NCBI GenBank assembly: GCA_028679775.1
Contig: JAJRAX010000131.1
Coordinates: 1-10,178, forward strand
Length of the DNA stretch: 10,178 bases
Direction of reading: 5' to 3'
From: Methanothrix sp.
Lineage (GTDB): Archaea > Halobacteriota > Methanosarcinia > Methanotrichales > Methanotrichaceae
Of the stretch, positions 1-10,178 are shown piece by piece. The notes below the pieces were generated by a model. It was not told the DNA's origin and searched no databases. It worked only from the letters and a program-made list of their open reading frames with translations. The translations under genes and the position numbers were made by a program. The first letter of the stretch is position 1. Each line of letters begins with the position of its first letter.

Positions 1-198
1 AGATACACTTCTCAGAAGTGCTCTAACTGCGGGCATACCTACAAAGGGAACCGCGAAGGTTCTGCTTTCCGTTGCCGTAAATGTGGTTTTGAACTCCATG
101 CGGACCTCAATGCTTCTCGAAACATAGCTCAGGCGGGTATATCTTGCCTGAGTAGGCTGTCTTGTCAACCAGCCAAATGCGACACAACATTATCGTAG
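1..198 (+). CDS. tnpB: TnpB (IS200/IS605 OrfB family) RNA-guided nuclease, C-terminal fragment
   Basis: Only the last 65 codons are present; the gene enters from the left edge and stops at TAG 196-198. The fragment has the TnpB zinc-finger layout: CSNC at residues 7-10 and CRKC at residues 25-28. This is followed by [12 protein letters not shown], whose Asp (residue 35) matches the third acidic residue of the RuvC-like active site. TnpB proteins of this family are RNA-guided DNA nucleases of about 400 residues, carried by transposons that move as single strands through TnpA. Whether the full gene is intact, and whether tnpA is present, cannot be seen. It is convergent with the binding-protein gene ending at 234, with only 35 bp between the stop codons. 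The family assignment is strong; activity is unknown. Confidence 0.93.
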
Positions 199-233: not shown

Positions 234-1484
234 TTAGCTCTCTTCCAATGGCGGATAAACGAATACGCCGTTCTTATCGAGGTCATAATCCAGATTCTGG
301 AATCTGGTTAGATACTCCTGGTGTATCGCCTCTGGATCCAGGTCTTTGAAGAGATCTGGGTGGAACCACTTTGCCATATAGATAACGCTCAGGAAGTATC
401 TTCCACCAAAGAATATATCGGCCGATTGAATATAGACATTGTCGCTCCTAATCGCCGAGACATTCGCCAGCTCGGAGTGATCCAGGATCTCATTTTTCTT
501 CTCGATAAATTCCGAAAAATTGTCATTCTCCAGAGAATAGCCGCCGATGTTGCTGATCTTCCAAACTATGAACTGAGGATCTCTTTGTACCAATGCTTCT
601 GGATCAACATTTACATCTCCATCGGTATCTCCAAAGATATTCTCTCCACCAGCCATGACGATTGCATTGTGCGATGATGTGCCAGAACCCCCTGTCTTAT
701 AGAGTTCTGATCTTCCGCCTTCATATACCCTTGGCTTTGCTTCTTGAGGTATATCCTTTACAATTTCGGCTATTTTGTCCATCTTCTCATTATACCAATC
801 AGTGAACTCATTAGCCTCTTCGACCTTTCCGACAATGTACCCTAACTTCGTAATGTCTTCTACATAAGTCTCCGGTTTGAAGCAGTCCAAGCCGATTACA
901 GAGATGTCAGGATCAGCTTTCTTGAGCGTATCGTTTAAGGTCTCATAATCCGTCTTCCACTGAGTGCCGTAATAAACTACTAGATCCGGCTTTTGCTCTA
1001 TGATCTTCTCGAAATCTGGAGTCTTTCCCGAACCTACATTTAGGACATTCAGGAATTCTGGGAAGTAAGACCTATCGTTCAAGGCCGTATCACTAACCCC
1101 GATGATCTTATCTGCTGCCTTAATTGTCCTCAAAGCCTCTGCAGCATTTCTGTTAACAGCGATGATGCTCTCTACTGGTGTTTTAACTGTTACGACACTG
1201 CCCTGAGAATCCAGAAGGACCAGTTTTGTCTGCTTTCTGCCAATGATATTCTCGATCTGCTCAAGATCCTGGTCGTCGATTTTGCCATCGTAATTAGCAT
1301 CGCTCAAGTTTGTGACCGGATTTGTTCCTGCGATCACACCTTTCAGGTAATCGATGTCCATCTCATCAACTGCATCATCCATGTTGGCATTGCCAAAGAT
1401 TTGAAGCAAGTATTCAGATGCCATTATCGGAGTGCATGCAGATGCTAGAAGAAACACAGAAAGAAAAAGAACAAGTAGCTTCAT
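234..1484 (-). CDS. Secreted dockerin-like/periplasmic-binding fusion protein, type A copy 2 (ABC solute-binding protein)
   Basis: 416 residues. Residues 1-22 form a signal peptide; Cys17 in LLASAC is an off-consensus lipobox candidate. Two dockerin-type calcium loops follow at 32-43 (NANMDDAVDEMD) and 62-73 (DANYDGKIDDQD), each with acidic or Asn residues at positions 1, 3, 5, 9 and 12. From about residue 88 to 410 it resembles the iron-complex/corrinoid binding-protein family (Peripla_BP_2, as in BtuF/FhuD), including KPDLVVYYG near 165, PRVYEGG near 251 and AKWFHPDLF at 371-379. Such proteins deliver ligands to an ABC importer; none is encoded here. The start follows directly on the upstream TGA, with GGAGG (1493-1497) 8 nt away inside the preceding gene, which implies translational coupling. 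It is most like the gene at 8006-9268 (shared HQEYLTRFQ ending). The ligand is unknown. Confidence 0.88.
   Translation of the reverse strand: MKLLVLFLSVFLLASACTPIMASEYLLQIFGNANMDDAVDEMDIDYLKGVIAGTNPVTNLSDANYDGKIDDQDLEQIENIIGRKQTKLVLLDSQGSVVTVKTPVESIIAVNRNAAEALRTIKAADKIIGVSDTALNDRSYFPEFLNVLNVGSGKTPDFEKIIEQKPDLVVYYGTQWKTDYETLNDTLKKADPDISVIGLDCFKPETYVEDITKLGYIVGKVEEANEFTDWYNEKMDKIAEIVKDIPQEAKPRVYEGGRSELYKTGGSGTSSHNAIVMAGGENIFGDTDGDVNVDPEALVQRDPQFIVWKISNIGGYSLENDNFSEFIEKKNEILDHSELANVSAIRSDNVYIQSADIFFGGRYFLSVIYMAKWFHPDLFKDLDPEAIHQEYLTRFQNLDYDLDKNGVFVYPPLEES
1239..1400 (-). repeat. Dockerin-module coding repeat, copy in the gene at 234-1484
   Basis: This is one of four diverged copies of a roughly 160-bp block coding for the double calcium-loop module. 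It is nearest to the copy at 8996-9157, with about three quarters of residues identical by eye and long shared DNA runs around the DANYDGKID codons. Confidence 0.7.
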
Positions 1485-2735
1485 TCAGCTCTCCTCCAAT
1501 AGCGGATAGGAATACACTCCCTTGAGATCCACCCCAAGGAACTCTTGCAGCCACTCTCTGTGAATGGCTGCAGGGTCCATGTCCTCGAAAAGCTCAGGAT
1601 GCAGCCATTTGGCAACATAAGAATTGAAGATGCTTGGGTGTATTGATGCAGCATCACTGGTAATAATGTAAATTCGACCGTTCTTGACCGCATCGATGTG
1701 ATCCCAGCCGGTGCGTTTCGCGATCTCCTTTAATTTTGCGTCCATCTCCGTGCTATTTGCCGCATCATACCCGCACTGAGAAATGAATGAATTCGAGGTC
1801 ATCTTTAAAATCACCTGCGGATTTTTGCTGATGACCTCCTCAGGATCTATGCTGCTTGTGCTGTTTAATCCAGCGAAAATATTGATGCCGCCACATGGCT
1901 CAACAGCGCGACATACGCTGCTGGTCGGACCGTATTGCAGATCTTTGTAGCTCTCTGGATAGACGCGCGGCTTGTTTTCTTCGTCCAATCCTTTTATTCT
2001 CTCGTTTATGAAGTTGAGATGTTCTTCTTCAAAGTCGATGAGATCATCAGCTCTCTCTTTTTTGTCCAGCAACCACCCCAATTTAGTCACCTCACTGTTA
2101 TATGTTTCCGGGACATGGAAATTCATCTGGACCAATGCAATTCCTGCATCGTTCAATACCTTCCTTTGAGAAGAATAATCGTAGACGGCGTAGGCCAGCA
2201 CAACCTCTGGCTTTATCTCAATGATCTTCTCCATATCCCACTCAGTAGTCGTTCCAACTTCGGGCGTGTCTTTTACGTAGTCTGCAAACTCACCTCGTTT
2301 CTTGCCCTCCTCGACAATTGCGACGATCTTATTTGCGTCTCCTAGCACACAAAGGATCTCAGGACCGTAGGTGCCGCCCAGGGCAGCAACGCTTTTTATC
2401 GGCATGGGAACAGTAACGGGCTCTCTAGTAGCGAATGCAGCCGTATGTGGCTGGATGTTCTGCATTATCGTGAGATTCTCTTCATCACCGCGGATGATAT
2501 GCTCGATTTCCTCAATGTCTTTTTCATCGATCTTGCCATCATAATTGGCATCGGCAAGCTCCGTGTGATTGTTTGTGCCGTCGATTATTCCCTGCAGGAA
2601 TATCACATCGTTTTCATCTATTGTATCATCCATATTGGCATTGCCAAATATGTCAAGCGTAAACGCCTCCGCTGAAGGCAAGGCGCATAACAGAACTCCT
2701 GCCAAGGCGATGTGCATCAAAACAGATATATTCAT
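1485..2735 (-). CDS. Secreted dockerin-like/periplasmic-binding fusion protein, type B copy 2 (ABC solute-binding protein)
   Basis: 416 residues. The signal peptide probably ends after the SAEA of residues 21-24. Dockerin-type calcium loops lie at 32-43 (NANMDDTIDEND) and 62-73 (DANYDGKIDEKD). A linker is followed by an iron-complex/corrinoid-type binding fold from about 108: IKSVAALGGTYG, EIKPEVVLAYA near 173, EPCGGINIF at 279-287, HPELFEDMDP at 379-388. It pairs closely with the gene at 6731-7978, sharing PETY, a CGGI(N/D)IF motif and RTGWDHIDAVKNGR. The start is supported by GAGGA at 2743-2747, 7 nt upstream. It is first in a two-gene unit: its TGA (1485-1487) touches the next ATG, and its last codons (Leu-Glu-Glu-Ser) contain the next gene's ribosome site. 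Secretion and fold are clear; ligand and docking partner are unknown. Confidence 0.88.
   Translation of the reverse strand: MNISVLMHIALAGVLLCALPSAEAFTLDIFGNANMDDTIDENDVIFLQGIIDGTNNHTELADANYDGKIDEKDIEEIEHIIRGDEENLTIMQNIQPHTAAFATREPVTVPMPIKSVAALGGTYGPEILCVLGDANKIVAIVEEGKKRGEFADYVKDTPEVGTTTEWDMEKIIEIKPEVVLAYAVYDYSSQRKVLNDAGIALVQMNFHVPETYNSEVTKLGWLLDKKERADDLIDFEEEHLNFINERIKGLDEENKPRVYPESYKDLQYGPTSSVCRAVEPCGGINIFAGLNSTSSIDPEEVISKNPQVILKMTSNSFISQCGYDAANSTEMDAKLKEIAKRTGWDHIDAVKNGRIYIITSDAASIHPSIFNSYVAKWLHPELFEDMDPAAIHREWLQEFLGVDLKGVYSYPLLEES
2490..2651 (-). repeat. Dockerin-module coding repeat, copy in the gene at 1485-2735
   Basis: Second copy of the calcium-loop block. The linker between the loops (IDGTNNHTELA) is closer to the copy at 7733-7894 than to the type A copies, so it has diverged together with its own binding domain. 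Confidence 0.65.
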
Positions 2736-2742
2736 AATCTTA

Positions 2743-2747
2743 TCCTC
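2743..2747 (-). promoter_or_regulatory. Ribosome binding site for the gene starting at 2735
   Basis: GAGGA on the minus strand lies 7 nt before the ATG. It fits pairing with the archaeal 16S 3' end (CCUCC core) and fixes this start. It is immediately preceded by a perfect 10-bp palindrome, ATACTAGTAT, at 2748-2757. Confidence 0.7.
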
Positions 2748-2785
2748 ATACTAGTATAGATTTTCATAGCATTTTTTGCTTTGAC

Positions 2786-2802
2786 TATATTAATACTTAA
2801 AA
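2786..2802 (-). promoter_or_regulatory. Candidate TATA-box region for the 2735/1484 gene pair
   Basis: Read on the minus strand, this AT-rich stretch holds TTTTAAGTA and TATTAATATAG, about 50-60 nt before the ATG at 2735. An archaeal TATA box here would put the start point near 2762-2768 and give a leader of roughly 30 nt. The surrounding 2760-2840 region is AT-rich throughout, so the precise box is uncertain. Together with the terminator-like hairpin upstream, it suggests that the second binding-protein pair has its own transcript. Confidence 0.45.
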
Positions 2803-2866
2803 TTAACTCATAACTCGAAAATATTTTTATCACATAAACTATAGTCTGCACAACTCCCTAACAAAT

Positions 2867-2897
2867 GGCAAAAAAGAGAGTAGATCTCAAAAGAGAT
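2867..2897 (-). terminator. Likely terminator after the cobN-like gene
   Basis: On the minus strand, ATCTC-TTTT-GAGAT (2884-2897) forms a small hairpin. It is followed a few bases on by TCTCTTTTTT (six consecutive T at 2870-2875). The site begins about 33 nt after the stop at 2930. A U-rich tract after a gene is the main archaeal termination signal; the hairpin is weak and may be incidental. On the plus strand the same region has an outer AGATC/GATCT pair followed by TTTT, so it might act in both directions, though no plus-strand gene reads into it. Confidence 0.5.
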
Positions 2898-2929
2898 GAC
2901 GGATCTTTTTTAGCTTAATGGGGCTCAAA

Positions 2930-5900
2930 TTACTCTCTGACCGCCTTTGCCATCTTCTCCTTCCAGGCTTTCACTTCCTCCGCAGTGACGACGTCTATCG
3001 ATCCTCCCTGGAACTCGCCTTCCACATCGCCCATCCTCTCCTCCATCCAGCCCTCGATCTCCAGATAGAGGTTCTTGAGAGCATCCGAGACCTCCGGGTC
3101 AGCCTTCCACAAACCCCTCTGCTCGGCCTCCAGGAGTCTTCGGCCAATCTCCTCCATGGCCCAGGGATTGTTCTCCTGGAAGAATTTCCTGTTTTCCTCG
3201 TCCATGATGAAGGTCTTTGCGATCTCGTCAAAGATCCAGTCATCAACCTCTTGCGTCGTCGCCTCCCAGCCGTACACGCGACCAACGCGTTTCGAGATGT
3301 CGCCAGCTCCCTTGTAGCCGTGCCTCTTCATGCCGTCAATCCACTTGGGGTTGAGCAGCTTTGTCCGAACAACACGGCGCATCTCGTCTGCGAGGCTCCG
3401 AACCCGAACTCCGTCCTTTTCTCTCGTGTCTCCAAAATAGGCCGGCACTGCCTTCCCAGAGATCTCTTTGGCGGCGTTGGTCATGCCTCCGTGGGTCCCA
3501 AAGTAGCAGCAACAACTGAGAAGGTCGTATTCATCTGTAGGCGTTTTATTGAATGTTAAATCCACAGTCTGAAGCTGGTGGATCAGGCTCCTGTGGGCAT
3601 CCTCACCAAACACTCCTTTGCCGTACGAATACCCATTCCAATTAACGAAGATATCTGAGAGGTTCTGCTGGTTCTTCCAGGCCGATGCATATATTGCCAG
3701 AGTTATCCCGTCGCCGTATGTCCCAGGCTGGCTGGAATAAATGCGGGGGTGGTATCTCTCATTCATGACATGCTTTCTCAAGTAATTCATCTCAAGGGGC
3801 TCATCCCTGGCCGATATCTCCCTTAACGCCATATCAAGAAATTCTATGCGATTATAAAAGCAATCTCGAGTAGTACCGGCCACTCGAACAGTGAGATCGA
3901 TCCTTGGCCGTCCCAGTTTCTTCAATGGGATCACTTGGAAGCTGGTGACAGACCCACCCTTCCAAATTGGCTCTACACCGATGAGGTAAAGCATCTGGGC
4001 CAATTGCTCTCCATCCGCCCAGGCAATGTCGCTAGGCATCCAGTACATGGCAATATTCTCCGGCAGCTTGTTGTTCTCCTCCTTGAACTTCGCCAGCGTG
4101 CTTTCTGCCAATCTCTGGCCGACCATCCATGCCGCTTTGGTGGGAATGGTTGCCGGATCCAAGGAATAGAAGTTCCTGCCGGTGGGAAGGACATCCACCT
4201 TTCCTCCGGTTATGAGCCCAGACGGGCCGGGAGGGATGAATCCTCCGTCAAAGCCGTGAAACAGCGCTTCCATCTCGCCTGAGGCATCGATTTTTCTGGA
4301 GATGTCATTTATTCGATCAACCATTGTCTGCCAGGGCTCCAGGTCCCGACAGATCCATCTATCTCCAAGTATGCGACCGGCAGCCTGTTGTCCCTCGCCA
4401 TTGAGAAGAGACGACACCAGATCTCTGCCCAGACGATCTATCTGAAGCATATCGCTATTCTGGTCCAATTGACCTCCCATGAGCCCCACCACAAACTTTC
4501 TCAGCTCGGAATCAAACCTGAGAATGGAGCATATGAACTCGACCTTTCTCTCGCCCTGGGGCCTTTCTCCAAAAACATGCATGCCGTCCGGGATTTGGGT
4601 GTTGTAGATCTCTGAGATCTTCTCATGAGCGGCTTGTATTATCTCATCAATTCCTGCGCCGGATTGCATCATCTCATCCAAGCCTATATCCTTAGATATT
4701 TTGCTCTCTCTTACCAGATCTACAATGATATGCTCCAGAGAATGAGCCCTGGCTTTCTCGGATCTCTTGGTTTTATTGTACTCAGCGATAAGATCCTCCA
4801 GCTCCTTCAGCTCGCCGTATAGCCCGGATTCTGTCGTCACCGTTTGCATATGATCCACAATGACGGCACAGCTCCTCCGTTTCGCCATAGTCCCTTCAGG
4901 AGGATTGTCGGCATTGTAGATGTAAAGATGAGGCATATCGCCTAGTGCGATATCGGGCATACAATTCCTCGAGAGCGCCACCGACTTTCCAGGCAGAAAC
5001 TCAAGGTTGCCATGGGTGCCGACGTGGATCACTACATCGGCCCCAAATTCCTCCTCGATGTAATGATAGGTGGCCAGGTACTGATGGGTGGGCGGCACCT
5101 GCGGATCATGTAATATCTTGCAGACCCGGCCATCGCAACGTGCTCCGGCACAACCCCTCTTGGGCTGGACGCAGACTAATGCATTGCCGTAGCGAATACC
5201 AGTTACAACTATCTTATTCTGGTAGATCATGGCGGCAGGAATCCCATCTTTCTCTTCACCGGGTGGATGGCCCCAGGCGCTGATAATGCTATCCTTCGCC
5301 GGATTTGCCAGGCTGTCAAACCATTTCAGGTAATCCTCCTTGCTCACCAAGGATAGTGCTCCGCCTTTGTTGACAATCTCCTCGACAGTGGTCCATCGGA
5401 ACTCTGAGACTGCCTTCTTGCTCATGATCCGATCGATCAGCTCCTTTCCATCTTTCGGCGGCGAATCAATGGCATATCCTGCCTCTTTCATCCTCTGCAG
5501 GATCCTGGCGATGCTCTCAAGGGAATCCAGATGGGCGGCTCCACCCACCGCGCCCTCAACCGAAGCGCAGGGCTTGCTGTTGAGCATGAAACAGACCCGC
5601 CTCTCTCTTGGAGGCTTGTTTCTGAGAGAGATCCATTGGTCCACGCGTCGGGAGAGCTTCTCAATCCTCTCAGTCAATGGCACATGCTGTTCGAGCTCCA
5701 GATCGTGCATCTGACTGCTCTTGGCAACTCCTACTACTATCGGCTCGATCACGCCTGCAAATTCCGGCATGGACACATTCCAGCCGAGCTCATAGCTGCT
5801 CATGCCGAATGGATCGGCAAGCCATTCCTCTTCACCAAGATGGCGGAGGACCAGGGGATGAAAGACCGGCACGTCAAGCTTATTCATGGTATCTCTGACC

Positions 5901-6631
5901 GACTCCACATTAGATCCATGGACCATGGATTGGAGGTCTATCAGAGCATCAACTCTGCTGCAAAAGAACTCCTCGATAACATCGTTGCTAGCCTTTGCTC
6001 CCAACTCAGAGCTTTTCATGCCCAGAGAAAAGGCAGGAATAACATCATTGTTTTTTTCCAGTTCCCTGATAAGCTCATTCTCAACGCCCAAGTCGTCATT
6101 GATCCAAAATGACCTGTAGAAAAGGATGCCGACAATTCGACCTCTTCGGGGTTTGTACCATTCCAGGTATTCTTCTACGTCCTGGAAATACCGATCTGCA
6201 TCAGGATGATAAATCCCCTGCCAAGGCTGCTCAATAGGAGGATCATAATCGCAGCCGACATTCAGCACAGCTTTGCAGATGTACTTGAGCATGTTCCGTA
6301 TATTCTGAGGGCCGCCGAAGAGAAAATAGCGGTTGATCATTGCCATCTTTTCTAAGGGTATGGTTGAAGCCGACCAATGCGATGGATTGAGGCTGATGGC
6401 AACCAGAGGTTTAGTTGAGTCCACGCGCTGCATGATTTCATCCCAAAAACCATCGTGTGAGGGATGAATAAGCAGCAGATCCGCATCATTCAGGGAGGAT
6501 AGACAGGCTGCTAAATCGTCCTGCCGGTTCAAGCCGACGGTTGACCATGCCATCAGATCCAGGCCGATCTCTCGAGAGGCTTTCAGAATATGAGCCATAT
6601 CACTGGCCCATACAATTGCATTAATCTTCAT
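2930..6631 (-). CDS. cobN: CobN/ChlH-type class I chelatase large subunit homologue
   Basis: 1233 residues with no signal peptide, hence cytoplasmic. The CobN/BchH family domain fills most of the protein. Visible signatures are VGGAAHLDSLESIARIL near residues 358-380, HVGTHGNLEFLPGK at 536-549, GGFIPPGPSGL, and FGTHGGM at 1044-1050. Characterised members use ATP with AAA+ partners to insert Co into hydrogenobyrinate diamide or Mg into protoporphyrin. No partner subunit is encoded here. Methanogens insert cobalt and nickel into early tetrapyrroles with small CbiX/CfbA chelatases, so a housekeeping role is doubtful; remodelling or metal removal on an imported complex is an inference. Two cysteine groups are notable: C494/C499/C504 and C1040-C1042. 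The start ATG has a weak GGATGAT site just upstream. It lies 99 bp after the upstream binding-protein gene, with a TATA-like box of its own. The family is certain; the substrate and metal are unknown. Confidence 0.92.
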   Translation of the reverse strand: MKINAIVWASDMAHILKASREIGLDLMAWSTVGLNRQDDLAACLSSLNDADLLLIHPSHDGFWDEIMQRVDSTKPLVAISLNPSHWSASTIPLEKMAMINRYFLFGGPQNIRNMLKYICKAVLNVGCDYDPPIEQPWQGIYHPDADRYFQDVEEYLEWYKPRRGRIVGILFYRSFWINDDLGVENELIRELEKNNDVIPAFSLGMKSSELGAKASNDVIEEFFCSRVDALIDLQSMVHGSNVESVRDTMNKLDVPVFHPLVLRHLGEEEWLADPFGMSSYELGWNVSMPEFAGVIEPIVVGVAKSSQMHDLELEQHVPLTERIEKLSRRVDQWISLRNKPPRERRVCFMLNSKPCASVEGAVGGAAHLDSLESIARILQRMKEAGYAIDSPPKDGKELIDRIMSKKAVSEFRWTTVEEIVNKGGALSLVSKEDYLKWFDSLANPAKDSIISAWGHPPGEEKDGIPAAMIYQNKIVVTGIRYGNALVCVQPKRGCAGARCDGRVCKILHDPQVPPTHQYLATYHYIEEEFGADVVIHVGTHGNLEFLPGKSVALSRNCMPDIALGDMPHLYIYNADNPPEGTMAKRRSCAVIVDHMQTVTTESGLYGELKELEDLIAEYNKTKRSEKARAHSLEHIIVDLVRESKISKDIGLDEMMQSGAGIDEIIQAAHEKISEIYNTQIPDGMHVFGERPQGERKVEFICSILRFDSELRKFVVGLMGGQLDQNSDMLQIDRLGRDLVSSLLNGEGQQAAGRILGDRWICRDLEPWQTMVDRINDISRKIDASGEMEALFHGFDGGFIPPGPSGLITGGKVDVLPTGRNFYSLDPATIPTKAAWMVGQRLAESTLAKFKEENNKLPENIAMYWMPSDIAWADGEQLAQMLYLIGVEPIWKGGSVTSFQVIPLKKLGRPRIDLTVRVAGTTRDCFYNRIEFLDMALREISARDEPLEMNYLRKHVMNERYHPRIYSSQPGTYGDGITLAIYASAWKNQQNLSDIFVNWNGYSYGKGVFGEDAHRSLIHQLQTVDLTFNKTPTDEYDLLSCCCYFGTHGGMTNAAKEISGKAVPAYFGDTREKDGVRVRSLADEMRRVVRTKLLNPKWIDGMKRHGYKGAGDISKRVGRVYGWEATTQEVDDWIFDEIAKTFIMDEENRKFFQENNPWAMEEIGRRLLEAEQRGLWKADPEVSDALKNLYLEIEGWMEERMGDVEGEFQGGSIDVVTAEEVKAWKEKMAKAVRE

Positions 6632-6669
6632 ATCATCATCCGATAAGGAATTAATGTATTAGTTAAAGC

Positions 6670-6685
6670 TATTAATTTAAAAATT
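6670..6685 (-). promoter_or_regulatory. Candidate TATA box for the cobN-like gene
   Basis: On the minus strand TAATTTTTAAATTAATA lies about 40-50 nt before the ATG at 6631. It would place the start point near 6650 and leave a short leader. A perfect inverted repeat sits immediately upstream at 6686-6700. The box could let cobN be transcribed separately from the two binding-protein genes ahead of it. Confidence 0.45.
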
Positions 6686-6700
6686 AGAAGAATATCTTCT
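6686..6700. repeat. Perfect inverted repeat AGAAGA-N3-TCTTCT next to the cobN TATA box
   Basis: Arms 6686-6691 and 6695-6700 are exact complements around a 3-base centre. In the direction of transcription it lies just ahead of the TATA-like element, where BRE or an operator would sit, and about 31 nt after the stop of the preceding gene. It could be a regulator site. As RNA it would be a short hairpin followed by TAATTTTT, so it could instead end the upstream transcript. Confidence 0.5.
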
Positions 6701-6730
6701 CCCCTGTCAAACATTCAACTGCTCGCAGCT

Positions 6731-7978
6731 TTACGGCAGCGGGAAGGCGTATACTCCTTTGTACTCGATTCCCAGGAACTTTTGCAGCCATTCCTGGTGA
6801 ACTGCCACGGGGTCCAGGTCCTCAAACTCTTCAGGATGAAGACATTTAGCAATGTAGGCATGGAATATGCTGGGATGAATCGAGGCTGCATCGCTGGTAA
6901 TGACATATACTCGCCCATTTTTAACTGCATCAATGTGATCCCAACCCGTGCGGTTCTCAATATCCGCAATCTTCTTCTCCATTTCGCTGGTATTGGTTGC
7001 GTCATATCCGCTGTCTGACATGTAATTTCCTGCAGTCATATGAATGATCACCTGCGGATTCTGACTGATCACCTCTTCTGGATCGATGTCTGTTGAAACT
7101 CCCAGATCCTCGAATATATCGATGCCTCCGCACGGCCCAATTGCCAGGCCCACCGAACTGGAAGATCCCCCATATCTATTATCGCGGTATGTCTCAGCAT
7201 AGACCTTTGGCTTCTGTTCCTCTTTGAAGTCCTTTGTCCTTTCAGTTATGTAGTTGAGATGCTCATCTTCGAAGCTGATCAGTTCTTCAGCTCGATCCCG
7301 CTTGCCCAAGATCCAGCCCAGAGTTCTTACCTCGCTCTTATATGTTTCCGGCCTGTTGAAGTTCATCTGAACCAGGGAAATACCTGCAGGCTCCAGAATC
7401 TTTCTGTATTCAGCGAGATCGAAGGACGCATATCCAAGAACGAGATCGGGTTTTATTTCCAGGATCGTCTCCATATCCCAGTCATCATTGCTGGTCCCAA
7501 CTATGGTTTTGTCTTTCATTATGTCTCTTATCTCTCCCCGCTCAACTGCTCCGGAGAGAATGGCTACAATCAGATCAGAATCTCCAATTGCACAGAGCAT
7601 GTAGGGCCCATAGGTGCCGCTCAGCGCTGCTATGCTCTTGATGGGCATATTTAAAGTCGCGGGCGTCTTGGTGATATTGATCTCTTTGGATGTCTTTAGA
7701 TTCTGGATTACGGTGATGTTCTTCTCCTCGCCCTTGATGATAAGATCTATCTGTGCAATATCGAGATCATTGATATTGCCGTCGTAGTTGGCATCTGCCA
7801 GATCGGTGGCATCGTTGACCCCATTGATAATGCCCTGCACATATTCAATGTCATCTTGATCGATGGTATCGTCCATGTTGGCATTTCCATAGATCTCCAA
7901 GACGAATTCAGCAGTTGCGGGCAATGCATTTAGCAATATGCTCGCCAAAATTAATAAGACAATTGTCGGCTTTTTCAT
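6731..7978 (-). CDS. Secreted dockerin-like/periplasmic-binding fusion protein, type B copy 1 (ABC solute-binding protein)
   Basis: 415 residues from the ATG at 7978. This start is preferred over an in-frame GTG at 8002 because GAGGG (7986-7990) lies 7 nt upstream, the signal peptide then begins MKKPTIVLLILA, and the dockerin loops fall at exactly the same residues as in two paralogues. The signal peptide ends near ATA (21-23). Calcium loops are at 32-43 (NANMDDTIDQDD) and 62-73 (DANYDGNINDLD). An iron-complex/corrinoid-type binding fold follows from about 109: EIKPDLVLGYA, GPCGGIDIF at 281-289, HPEEFEDLDP. It resembles the gene at 1485-2735 throughout but lacks that protein's EES ending. It is 27 bp downstream of the 8006-9268 gene, so the two are probably co-transcribed, and it precedes cobN. 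Ligand unknown. Confidence 0.88.
   Translation of the reverse strand: MKKPTIVLLILASILLNALPATAEFVLEIYGNANMDDTIDQDDIEYVQGIINGVNDATDLADANYDGNINDLDIAQIDLIIKGEEKNITVIQNLKTSKEINITKTPATLNMPIKSIAALSGTYGPYMLCAIGDSDLIVAILSGAVERGEIRDIMKDKTIVGTSNDDWDMETILEIKPDLVLGYASFDLAEYRKILEPAGISLVQMNFNRPETYKSEVRTLGWILGKRDRAEELISFEDEHLNYITERTKDFKEEQKPKVYAETYRDNRYGGSSSSVGLAIGPCGGIDIFEDLGVSTDIDPEEVISQNPQVIIHMTAGNYMSDSGYDATNTSEMEKKIADIENRTGWDHIDAVKNGRVYVITSDAASIHPSIFHAYIAKCLHPEEFEDLDPVAVHQEWLQKFLGIEYKGVYAFPLP
7733..7894 (-). repeat. Dockerin-module coding repeat, copy in the gene at 6731-7978
   Basis: Third copy. The second loop has Asn in place of the usual Lys and Asp at positions 7 and 9 (DANYDGNINDLD). Asn is still an acceptable calcium ligand, so the loop is probably functional. 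Confidence 0.65.
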
Positions 7979-7985
7979 AAAAATT

Positions 7986-7990
7986 CCCTC
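7986..7990 (-). promoter_or_regulatory. Ribosome binding site selecting the ATG at 7978
   Basis: GAGGG on the minus strand, 7 nt before the ATG, decides between two in-frame starts. The competing GTG at 8002 also has a GGAGG 10 nt upstream, inside the last codons of the preceding gene. That start would add eight residues before the signal peptide. Confidence 0.65.
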
Positions 7991-8005
7991 AAAATTATTC
8001 ACGGT

Positions 8006-9268
8006 TCACATCGCCTCCGCAGGATAGAAGAACACACCGTGCTGATCCAAATCGAAGTCCAGCTTCTGGAATCTGGTCAGATACTCCTGATGGATCGCCA
8101 CCGGGTCCAGGTCTGAAAAGATATCTGGATGCAATATCTTGGCCATATACAAAATGCCGATCCAGTAAGATAGCCCAGTTGAGATATCCGTGGAGAAGCA
8201 GTAAACCTTTCCGTCCTTTACAGCAGTGATATTGGCAAGCTCAGGACGGCTGAGGATCTTCTCTCTCAAGGCTTTGATTTGAGCAGGATCATCCTCATCG
8301 TAGCCGCAAGAGGCATCGGCCTTCAGAGCCCTTCTCATGATGACCTCAGGATTTTCCTTAATAACCCATTCAGCTTCTACAAATGGCGTTCCGCTGGCGT
8401 CTGACGTTATTCCTGAGGCGATATTTCTGCCGCCTGCCATTACCAGCATCTCATGAGCACCGGAGCCCTCGGTGTTGGTTCTGTAATCAGAGTACTCGAT
8501 ATAGACTCTAGGCTTTTCATCTTCCGAGAGAGTTGAGACGCGCTCAGTGATGGTGGATAGAGGCTTCTGATAGAAATCGATTAGCTCTTTGGCTTCTGAA
8601 CTTTTGCCCACCGCATATCCGAGCATCATGATATCCTGATCGGTGGTGCTGAAGGGGCGATAGGTCAGGCGAAGCACCGGGACTGCATCAGATAGATCCT
8701 TCTCCAGGTTCTCAGCCCAGGTTCCCCATACGATTACCAGATCGGGCTTCAAGCTGACTATTGCCTCGGAATCAGGAGTTGATGCGCCACCGACCGTGGG
8801 AAGCTTGCTGAGATCCGGGTAGAATGCGGTATAATTCTCCATGTAGGTGGGAATGCCCACAATTCTGTCCTCTGCTCCAAGCGACCTGAGCACTTCGGCA
8901 AACATGGCATGGCAGATCACAATACGCTTTACCGGCTCATCTATGGTGACAGTTTTTCCGCTTTCATCGATTACGGAAATCTCCTCTTCTTCGCCGTTTA
9001 TGATCTTTTCAATCTGCTCTACATCCTTGTCGTCGATTTTGCCATCGTAATTGGCATCGCTCAAGTTGGTGGCAGGTTTTGTCCCACCTATCACTTCATT
9101 CAGATAATTGATGTCCTGCTCGTCAATTACATCATCCATATTAGCATTGCCAAAGATGCTAAGAGAAAAGCCATCATCGTTCTGGCTGCCAGATGCAGCG
9201 CCCCAGGCTACAGATGATGCTGCCAGGACAATCAAAGCAATCAAACAAATCTTCAAATCTGCGTTCAT
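8006..9268 (-). CDS. Secreted dockerin-like/periplasmic-binding fusion protein, type A copy 1 (ABC solute-binding protein)
   Basis: 420 residues from the ATG at 9268. An in-frame ATG at 9307 would give 433 residues, but it adds a hydrophilic 13-residue lead (KYDKIIINGRQD) before a good signal peptide (MNADLKICLIALIVLAASS). Neither start has a strong ribosome site, so the choice is not firm. Dockerin-type calcium loops lie at 41-52 (NANMDDVIDEQD) and 71-82 (DANYDGKIDDKD). The binding fold runs from about 97: TIDEPVKRIVICHAMFAEVL, with His120 in the loop that often contacts ligand in this fold, then KPDLVIVWGTW, KPRVYIEYS and LHPDIFSDLDP. It ends HQEYLTRFQ...GVFFYP, as in the gene at 234-1484. 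It is first of a probable A-B(-cobN) transcript with a TATA box at 9345-9353. Ligand unknown. Confidence 0.86.
   Translation of the reverse strand: MNADLKICLIALIVLAASSVAWGAASGSQNDDGFSLSIFGNANMDDVIDEQDINYLNEVIGGTKPATNLSDANYDGKIDDKDVEQIEKIINGEEEEISVIDESGKTVTIDEPVKRIVICHAMFAEVLRSLGAEDRIVGIPTYMENYTAFYPDLSKLPTVGGASTPDSEAIVSLKPDLVIVWGTWAENLEKDLSDAVPVLRLTYRPFSTTDQDIMMLGYAVGKSSEAKELIDFYQKPLSTITERVSTLSEDEKPRVYIEYSDYRTNTEGSGAHEMLVMAGGRNIASGITSDASGTPFVEAEWVIKENPEVIMRRALKADASCGYDEDDPAQIKALREKILSRPELANITAVKDGKVYCFSTDISTGLSYWIGILYMAKILHPDIFSDLDPVAIHQEYLTRFQKLDFDLDQHGVFFYPAEAM
8996..9157 (-). repeat. Dockerin-module coding repeat, copy in the gene at 8006-9268
   Basis: Fourth copy. It is set nine residues deeper in its protein than the other three because of a Ser/Gly/Asp-rich stretch (ASGSQNDDG) after the signal peptide. 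Confidence 0.65.
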
Positions 9269-9344
9269 ATCTTGCCTGCCATTGATTATAATTTTATCAT
9301 ATTTCATTTTACTATGATATGAATAGGTTTGTCATTAGAATAGA

Positions 9345-9540: not shown

Positions 9541-10178
9541 TCAGGTGTCATTCACCACATTTCTTGCGTGCCTCATAAATACCCTCTTGACAGAACACTC
9601 GATGCTCAGATTTCTGCCCGCCAGGTAGTGAGCCAGGCATGGCCCACCGCATAGCCAGAGATCTGGGCAGGCAAGGCATTCCCGCGGGCGGGTCACAAGA
9701 GAGCAAGCCCTGACCATTCTATCCCGCAGACCATCGGCAAAATGCTTATCTTCAACTCTTCCGAGCATCATCTCCGGACGCAGTAGTGAAGGGCAAACGT
9801 AAGAGAGGCCATCAGCCAAAACCACAAGAGATCGGCATGAGTCAAAGTAGCAGTGATGCTGCCTTTTTTTTCTCAAATCAATTGTGCTCTTCATCCTTTC
9901 CAGCTCCCTGAATTTTATCCCTCTTGCTCCTATTGAATAGAGATGCTCCGCCCGGCAAATGGCCGCCTCGATTCCCTCTGCGGCTTGAGCGGGGTTAGGC
10001 TGGATGAAGGAGCTGGCTCTGCCTACTGGTCTAACGAAATCTATGGCCACTCCATCGATATTTCCAAGATAGCTGAAGAGATCCACAAGACCGTTCAATG
10101 CCCCAGCATTGGCCCGTGTGAGAACAGTAGTCGCACCAACCAAAATGCCCTCGTCTCTCAGAGCCAAAATGCCTCGAA
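9541..10178 (-). CDS. Radical SAM/SPASM domain protein, C-terminal part
   Basis: The reading frame stays open to the right edge (Arg-Gly-Ile-Leu before ALRDEGILVG), so the start and the radical SAM CxxxCxxC motif lie outside the window. About 212 residues are visible. They hold the end of the SAM barrel (ATTVLTRANAG, then VDLFSYLG) and a SPASM-type cysteine region: CYFDSC, YVCPS about 20 residues on, ECLACPDLWLCGGPC, and a last Cys in IECSVKRVF. SPASM domains bind auxiliary iron-sulfur clusters and occur in enzymes that modify peptides or proteins, such as RiPP maturases and sulfatase-activating enzymes. The substrate cannot be told from this part. It is transcribed in the same direction as the binding-protein locus but is separated by a spacer with its own promoter. 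Confidence 0.85.
   Translation of the reverse strand, partial: RGILALRDEGILVGATTVLTRANAGALNGLVDLFSYLGNIDGVAIDFVRPVGRASSFIQPNPAQAAEGIEAAICRAEHLYSIGARGIKFRELERMKSTIDLRKKRQHHCYFDSCRSLVVLADGLSYVCPSLLRPEMMLGRVEDKHFADGLRDRMVRACSLVTRPRECLACPDLWLCGGPCLAHYLAGRNLSIECSVKRVFMRHARNVVNDT

Follow-up and report, generated by a model that had tools for sequence, protein, structure and literature searches.

The DNA analysed here (hereafter the window) is a 10,178-nt stretch, contig JAJRAX010000131.1, from a Methanothrix sp. genome of 2.34 Mb that is 83% complete in 410 contigs. Five open reading frames lie on its minus strand in the order A2, B2, cobN-like, B1, A1, with two predicted substrate-binding proteins (PBPs) on either side of a chelatase homologue. 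An earlier note on this DNA had claimed such an arrangement, a cobN-like gene between binding proteins in the one-strand order A, B, cobN, B, A. Profile searches bear this out, placing all four PBPs in PF01497 and the central protein in PF02514.

A2 (8006-9307, minus strand) is a predicted secreted PF01497 protein with an N-terminal dockerin-like module (8972-9166, minus strand). Its start lies at 9307 or 9268; the latter, an end coordinate in the earlier note, is an internal ATG of A2. B2 (6731-8002, module 7709-7903) and B1 (1485-2735, module 2466-2660) are predicted secreted PF01497 proteins of the B lineage, and A1 (234-1484, module 1215-1409) is a further such protein; all three genes and their N-terminal dockerin-like modules are on the minus strand. 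The cobN-like gene (2930-6631, minus strand) encodes a class I chelatase large subunit of the CobN/ChlH/HmuS family, 1233 residues long. Successive intergenic gaps are 3, 99, 194 and 0 bases, the 99 and 194 bases flanking the cobN-like gene. The window also holds a TnpB-like fragment (1-198) and a radical-SAM/SPASM fragment (9541-10176), each cut by a contig end; no cob genes were recognised in it. T-runs, scanned as an operon signal, matched at chance level, and the promoter and terminator scan looks for bacterial signals and is uninformative at an archaeal locus. A NikR-like palindrome showed no excess over shuffles across 68 upstream stretches.

Dockerin-tagged binding proteins

All four PBPs begin with a hydrophobic, signal-like N-terminus, and no hydrophobic C-terminal anchor was seen in any of them. 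Among the 89 dockerin-PBPs that we collected, three have a lipobox-like motif and none a PGF tail. The AlphaFold2 model of B1 has a mean pLDDT of 92, and its nearest solved folds are YiuA, FepB and MolA; the family and fold of the window PBPs are confirmed as FecB/BtuF-class. As a clue to substrate the fold singles out no ligand, siderophore- or molybdate-like proteins matching first and nickel and heme ones next. The profile of the heme-binding PBP IsdE gave scores of 33-55 bits, against an equivalog cut-off of 299. The genome holds 33 PF01497 places, compared with six for FecCD permeases (five of them strong) and seven for PF02514, so those of the window are four members drawn from a large set of paralogues and do not make up a matched quartet.

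The dockerin-like module is 65 residues long and directly precedes the PBP domain in all four proteins. A 16-row alignment reveals a duplicated F-hand, with the loops NANMDD..D and DANYDG.ID..D. When the module profile was compared with solved structures, cellulosomal and other dockerin chains matched best (E 0.001-0.009), with some other calcium-binding EF-hand proteins intermixed. Pfam Dockerin_1, scanned at a loose threshold against B1 and A1, matched B1 only, below the cut-off (E 0.017). The earlier description of these proteins as dockerin-tagged is thus sound, on the strength of the F-hand loops and the structure-profile matches.

The module is present in 15 of 23 genomes of the genus and in none of 14 others. 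Over these 37 genomes its matches sum to 132, of which 15 are in the parent genome, 23 and 32 in two relatives, and 11 in open frames shorter than 300 residues (our tally from the per-genome table). Dockerin-PBPs also occur beyond this sample, at 13 of the 79 cobN loci described below, some titled ANME or Methanosarcinaceae. All 74 module-carrying proteins in the fetched contigs are PBPs. The tag is genuine and, as far as seen here, PBP-specific. Its expected partner was sought as PF00963 cohesin, which matched none of 26 genus genomes (a search that divergent cohesins could escape, and in which the parent genome counts as 83% complete), one of 11 other genomes of the family and 14 of 23 others of the class. 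These are therefore dockerins lacking a recognised partner in the genus, and cohesin-mediated anchoring of the dockerin-PBPs is an assumption.

Do the four PBPs form two pairs, A1 with A2 and B1 with B2, as the earlier note held? For B they do. B1 and B2 are 57% identical and fall in a single 7-row clade in both our trees (a 165-row PBP tree and a 64-row dockerin-PBP tree; support 100 and 99), and their sisterhood is not rejected by a topology test. For A they do not. A1 and A2 are 41% identical to each other and reach 73% and 77%, respectively, to proteins of other genomes; A1 belongs to a clade of seven rows (six in the 64-row tree) and A2 to a separate clade of three. The sister pair A1+A2 is rejected (p-AU 7e-44, 64-row tree), and a joint clade of the two lineages finds no support but is not rejected either (p-AU 0.269). 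B is thus a clade, and A has not emerged as one.

The C-terminal motifs that had been quoted as marking A and B come from different alignment columns. Opposite HQEYLTRFQ of A stand HREWLQEFLG and HQEWLQKFLG in B, and in the other column HSELANVSAIRSDN and RPELANITAVKDGK of A stand opposite RTGWDHIDAVKNGR of B. Neither motif is diagnostic: HQEYLT occurs in 30 of the 89 dockerin-PBPs, across several clades, and RTGW in 13, some outside the B clade. The mirror arrangement thus reduces to B-cobN-B with two unlike PBPs on the outside, and there is no support for the proposal that two subtypes are each kept twice around a single chelatase. Judging from their divergence, A1, A2 and the B proteins plausibly bind different ligands.

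A Cys-Cys subfamily of class I chelatases

Gene order and families are confirmed and the A pairing is refuted; the real finding at this locus is the subfamily of its central enzyme, on which the earlier note did not remark. The window protein has the profile and fold of a PF02514 large subunit, and no signal peptide or anchor was noticed in it by eye. We aligned 96 distinct full-length members (>1100 residues) from the 110 in the fetched loci, having dropped 14 duplicates. Because the window protein served as the seed for this collection, the proportions are not a census. The metal-site pair is Cys-Cys in 85 of the 96 rows, Asp-Asp in seven, Asp-His in three and unassigned in one. In the window protein this pair is Cys1040-Cys1041 (3509-3514, minus strand).

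Within the 85 Cys-Cys rows, C355 (codon 5567-5569, minus strand), C499, C504, C557, C1040 and C1041 are invariant. C557 is not special, being Cys in the Asp-Asp and Asp-His rows too. C494 is Cys in 84 rows and Gly in one (locus L184). C494, C499 and C504 make up a CX4CX4C loop (5120-5152, minus strand) within RGC-x4-C-x4-CKILHDP, a predicted Fe-S or metal site. The pattern C-x4-C-x2-8-C occurs in 84 of the 85 Cys-Cys rows, archaeal and bacterial, and in none of the 11 others; in the printed chains of M. tuberculosis CobN and Synechocystis ChlH the loop is missing, a gap standing in its place. The loop is weakly modelled in the predicted structure. The conserved His of the HxGxHG motif (HVGTHG in the window, 5009-5026, minus strand) is His540, present in all 85 rows, and we take it as HmuS His538 from the motif given in the HmuS paper. 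A Cys pair facing His540, taken with the Cys loop, points to a metal centre of soft or redox character.

The 85 Cys-Cys rows form a supported group (support 99) in a FastTree phylogeny that included the motif columns and had long branches flagged. Its archaea are Methanothrix, Methanosarcinaceae, ANME, Methanophagales, Methanoculleus and Methanocellales; its bacteria are Bacillota, Myxococcota and Lentisphaerota, and isolates with this type include Sporomusa acidovorans and Clostridium ragsdalei. A search for CCCYFG as an exact DNA pattern gave hits in 85 of 392 genomes of the phylum (37 of 136 genera), compared with six of 392 for the backward control (tallied from the table). NCBIfam NF004646 (CobN) scores over its cut-off for the window protein; the name cobaltochelatase CobN is unsupported, because the metal-site residues are Cys-Cys. 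We found no paper on the Cys-Cys subfamily when searching the literature for Cys-rich or Fe-S CobN proteins, a search with most subscription papers outside its scope.

Archaeal use of HmuS, CobN and ChlH homologues is described as unclear in PMC12583661. The Cys-Cys subfamily makes this question testable. At the level of chemistry it predicts that cysteines ligate a metal or Fe-S centre within the active cleft or close to it, and at the level of the genome that the enzyme is coupled to uptake; both predictions apply across archaea and bacteria.

A proposed coupling of the chelatase to import

The earlier note had proposed asking whether A, B and cobN occur together as a conserved block. The five-gene block was not seen again among the loci fetched, but PBPs of the same lineages do recur beside Cys-type cobN genes. 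Both other members of the A2 lineage (genomes G024 and G010), which are the closest relatives of A2, share their locus with a Cys-type cobN. For the A1 lineage this holds in one of four other genomes (G022), and in the other three the stretches read, 4.9-10.5 kb long, are free of cobN. Two of five other B-lineage members have a Cys-type cobN at their locus, a third adjoins a different cobN type, and no cobN stands on the stretch read for the remaining two. G006 repeats the window's succession of a B-lineage gene and, directly after it, an A1-lineage gene, on a 4.9 kb contig without cobN.

Across archaea and bacteria, the Cys-Cys subfamily adjoins PBPs, FecCD permeases, ABC ATPases and ChlD/I-type AAA motors. 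Our neighbourhood set comprises 79 loci with a Cys-type cobN, 68 archaeal and 11 bacterial (one, L233, is too partial to test for the Cys pair), and beyond the window neighbours were typed only for the families sought. PBPs occur at 36 of the 79 loci, dockerin-PBPs at 13, FecCD permeases at 30 and ChlD-type genes at 38. Some importer part is present at 43 and an importer part or ChlD at 56, leaving 23 with neither, many of them on short contigs. The bacterial loci are no exception, with PBPs at six of 11 and FecCD at seven. Over all 79 loci we found 72 PBP genes against 10.9 expected and 31 FecCD genes against 2.0 expected; the expectation, computed for these two families from parent-genome density, is rough, since relatives differ in PBP number. 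In the parent genome, PBPs are on three of seven cobN contigs (hypergeometric p 0.006, all contigs weighted alike whatever their size).

Other uptake and export genes also appear at these loci. TonB receptors lie upstream at three bacterial loci, the three candidates scanned; heme, siderophore and B12 receptor models all figure among their best matches, and only the receptor of L239 passes a cut-off, for the broad TonB siderophore subfamily. CbiQ-type ECF parts stand instead at two loci of the same class (L101, and L100 assigned through its cluster with L101) and at two bacterial loci. Genes for ABC-2 exporters, and nitrogenase-like D/K/H genes, turn up repeatedly in the vicinity of cobN or of PBP arrays.

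Could the adjacency be fortuitous? PBPs are numerous in Methanothrix and might simply serve uptake of ferric or molybdate chelates, with the chelatase doing something else. The 33 PBP places of the parent genome, the tandem PBP arrays of relatives, the closeness of the PBP fold to siderophore and molybdate proteins, the PBP neighbours of other cobN types and the 23 loci with neither importer part nor ChlD are all in keeping with such an explanation. The frequencies of PBPs and FecCD permeases across many lineages, bacteria included, the three of seven cobN contigs of the parent genome and the A2-lineage PBPs near Cys-type cobN in two other genomes argue against it, and we consider chance adjacency quite unlikely. 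Indeed, the recurrence of same-lineage PBPs by Cys-type cobN, together with the enrichment of PBPs and FecCD, leaves a functional link between the PBPs and the chelatase supported.

The exporters raise a further scenario, a cycle in which a metal-free tetrapyrrole is secreted as a metallophore, loaded outside the cell, recaptured by dockerin-PBPs and imported, whereupon the Cys-type chelatase strips it of its metal for re-export. ABC-2 type exporter genes do stand with importer parts beside Cys-type cobN at several Methanothrix-genus loci (cluster c4). The window holds no exporter gene, however, and we know of no tetrapyrrole metallophore in methanogens. Such a cycle is very improbable.

We tentatively favour an anaerobic, importer-coupled class I chelatase that would most likely remove metal from scavenged metal-tetrapyrroles, with the PBPs as surface capture proteins; this reading is somewhat short of an even chance. 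We infer the substrate, metal and direction of the enzyme from families and genomic context. At the cell surface the PBPs would bind macrocycles or chelates that carry a metal, with the calcium-binding dockerin to hold or shape them, and a FecCD-type permease encoded elsewhere in the genome would import the ligand. In the cytosol, the CobN-like protein would bind the tetrapyrrole in its central cleft and exchange its metal between His540 on one side and the Cys pair on the opposite side. The Cys loop may carry a metal or Fe-S centre, which would donate electrons or accept the metal as it leaves, and a ChlD/I motor, also encoded elsewhere in the genome, would power the reaction. A working route of metal salvage from tetrapyrroles would bear on how methane producers and anaerobic methane oxidisers obtain nickel, cobalt and iron.

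The main competing reading has the chemistry run the other way, an ATP-driven chelatase with a ChlD/I motor, like CobNST and ChlHID, loading a metal such as cobalt or nickel into a tetrapyrrole, whether imported or made by the cell. It accords with the ChlD/I-type genes at 38 of the 79 loci and in the parent genome, with the NF004646 match and with the cobalamin salvage that annotators suggested for Haloferax CobN/ChlID (PMC8305020). It sits poorly with the Cys-Cys pair in place of the acidic and His metal-site residues of other subtypes, with the lack of a B12 riboswitch in the 15 loci searched, with the presence of CbiX in the genome and with importer neighbours that suit uptake better than biosynthesis. 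We regard insertion as doubtful, and removal (salvage of nickel, iron or cobalt) as likelier, because HmuS, the characterised importer-linked relative, removes metal; because the genome has CbiX for early insertion; and because other methanogens have proteins annotated CobN or BtuS that are reported to change with iron and sulfur source (PMC10846266) and under nickel limitation (PMC12350162). Our confidence in removal is limited by the ChlD/I motors, which are known from insertion and are the main counter-argument.

A bolder version of metal removal would make the Cys-Cys subfamily a third branch of class I chelatases, a thiolate or Fe-S dechelatase of strict anaerobes that works reductively on macrocycles delivered by dockerin-PBP arrays, with nickel (from F430 or other Ni tetrapyrroles) the boldest choice of metal. 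We consider this branch unlikely. If it exists, Methanothrix would have a surface apparatus for scavenging metal-tetrapyrroles with multiplied receptors, as the 15, 23 and 32 module matches per genome would then imply.

Comparison with known systems

HmuS, a heme dechelatase of Bacteroides (PDB 9D26), and BtuS1/BtuS2, grouped with it, are among the closest known systems (PMC12583661 and PMC6460266). Where HmuS has Asp1208-His1209..Glu1212, the window protein has Cys-Cys..Gly. The HmuS motif LSLDHxxEFMGG, with His1209 and Glu1212, is replaced by LLSCCCYFGTHGG, a mapping made through the motif text and the Asp-His rows. By the same route, rather than by direct alignment with 9D26, the Cys1041 and Cys1042 columns correspond to HmuS Asp1208 and His1209; position 1042 is Cys in 78, Tyr in four, His in two and Ser in one of the 85 rows. 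The HG motif of the HmuS Met79/His254 heme site aligns with window HG 238-239, its His being present in 21 of 85 rows, and Met79 is outside the alignment. The window subfamily also has the extra CX4CX4C loop, and ChlD/I motors stand near many of its members. No hmu part was found among the other ORFs of the window.

CobN of the CobNST complex (PDB 7C6O, 9FPC) differs in the same region. CobN-type paralogues have Asp-Asp where the window protein has Cys-Cys, and the Cys loop is absent from 7C6O. The acidic pair (DDFY) is absent from the subfamily, Cys1040-Cys1041 standing in 85 of 85 rows and DD in seven other rows, a label taken from paralogues and not from 7C6O residues. Partner AAA subunits are absent from the window; TIGR02442 scores over cut-off elsewhere in the genome. 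To our knowledge, a late-insertion corrin pathway would be unexpected in methanogens.

BchH belongs to the Mg chelatase of bacteriochlorophyll synthesis, and its motif, CX2CX3CX14C, has a Cys spacing that differs from the window loop. In Rhodobacter capsulatus, BchH is reported to have an oxygen-sensitive iron-sulfur cluster (Sirijovski 2007, cited in PMC7704502), so that Fe-S in the large subunit of a class I chelatase has a precedent.

The window PBPs share the fold of the FecB/BtuF class (PF01497; YiuA, FepB, MolA) over the PBP domain, to which they add an N-terminal dockerin-like module with little linker, and they are many per genome. The ANME archaea offer a parallel. Dockerins on ABC transporter binding proteins, and also cohesin scaffoldin-like proteins, are reported there in PMC9012536, whereas no cohesin was recognised in the 26 Methanothrix-genus genomes. 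The 'TroA' label used in that report may cover the PF01497 fold, and ANME loci are themselves among the 13 of 79 at which dockerin-PBPs adjoin a Cys-type cobN.

Genes at the window edges

Two incomplete genes flank the locus. At one end (window 1-198, + strand) a TnpB/Cas12f-like nuclease gene of the IS605 type is truncated by the contig end, so that just its C-terminal part is present. At the other (window 9541-10176, - strand) a radical SAM gene is represented by its C-terminal part, whose product includes a SPASM domain and scores above the TIGR04085 cut-off.

Irregular chelatases and other gene settings

Several genes of the Cys-type cobN group, the chelatase subfamily with Cys1040-Cys1041 at its predicted metal site, depart from the usual form. 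L184 has Gly at the position of C494, the first Cys of the C494-x4-C499-x4-C504 loop, and is the sole Cys-Cys row of the alignment lacking Cys there (1/85). In three loci (L149, L214 and L235) the gene is divided between two adjacent ORFs; this may reflect a frameshift, an assembly error or a true split. The cobN of L221, a locus titled Candidatus Nitrosotalea, falls within Methanophagales in the cobN tree, and this contig is perhaps mis-binned.

Elsewhere (L100, L101, L226 and L227) Cys-type cobN adjoins ABC ATPases and large proteins, some of the latter carrying beta-propeller domains (in L101 and L227) or SLH domains (in L226); CbiQ is also nearby in L101 and L226.

Nitrogenase-like neighbours and a CobN-family paralogue

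Nitrogenase-like genes (NifE/BchB/BchN-like) adjoin dockerin-tagged binding proteins or cobN in seven loci (L087, L134, L135, L142, L143, L151 and L165), in some accompanied by CfbC/NifH-like genes. Such neighbours may possibly encode macrocycle reductases. PF00148 occurs at 17 places in the window's own genome, where one contig (C51, locus L045) carries a run of nif-like genes followed directly by a FecCD permease, an ATPase and a binding protein.

In L132/L133 (genome G019, with contigs matching records under the name Methanosaeta sp. PtaU1.Bin112) nitrogenase-like D/K/H genes occur together with a tandem array of dockerin-tagged binding proteins. Alongside them is a CobN-family paralogue that has an HmuS-like LDHYYEFFGG motif and scores highest against ChlH.
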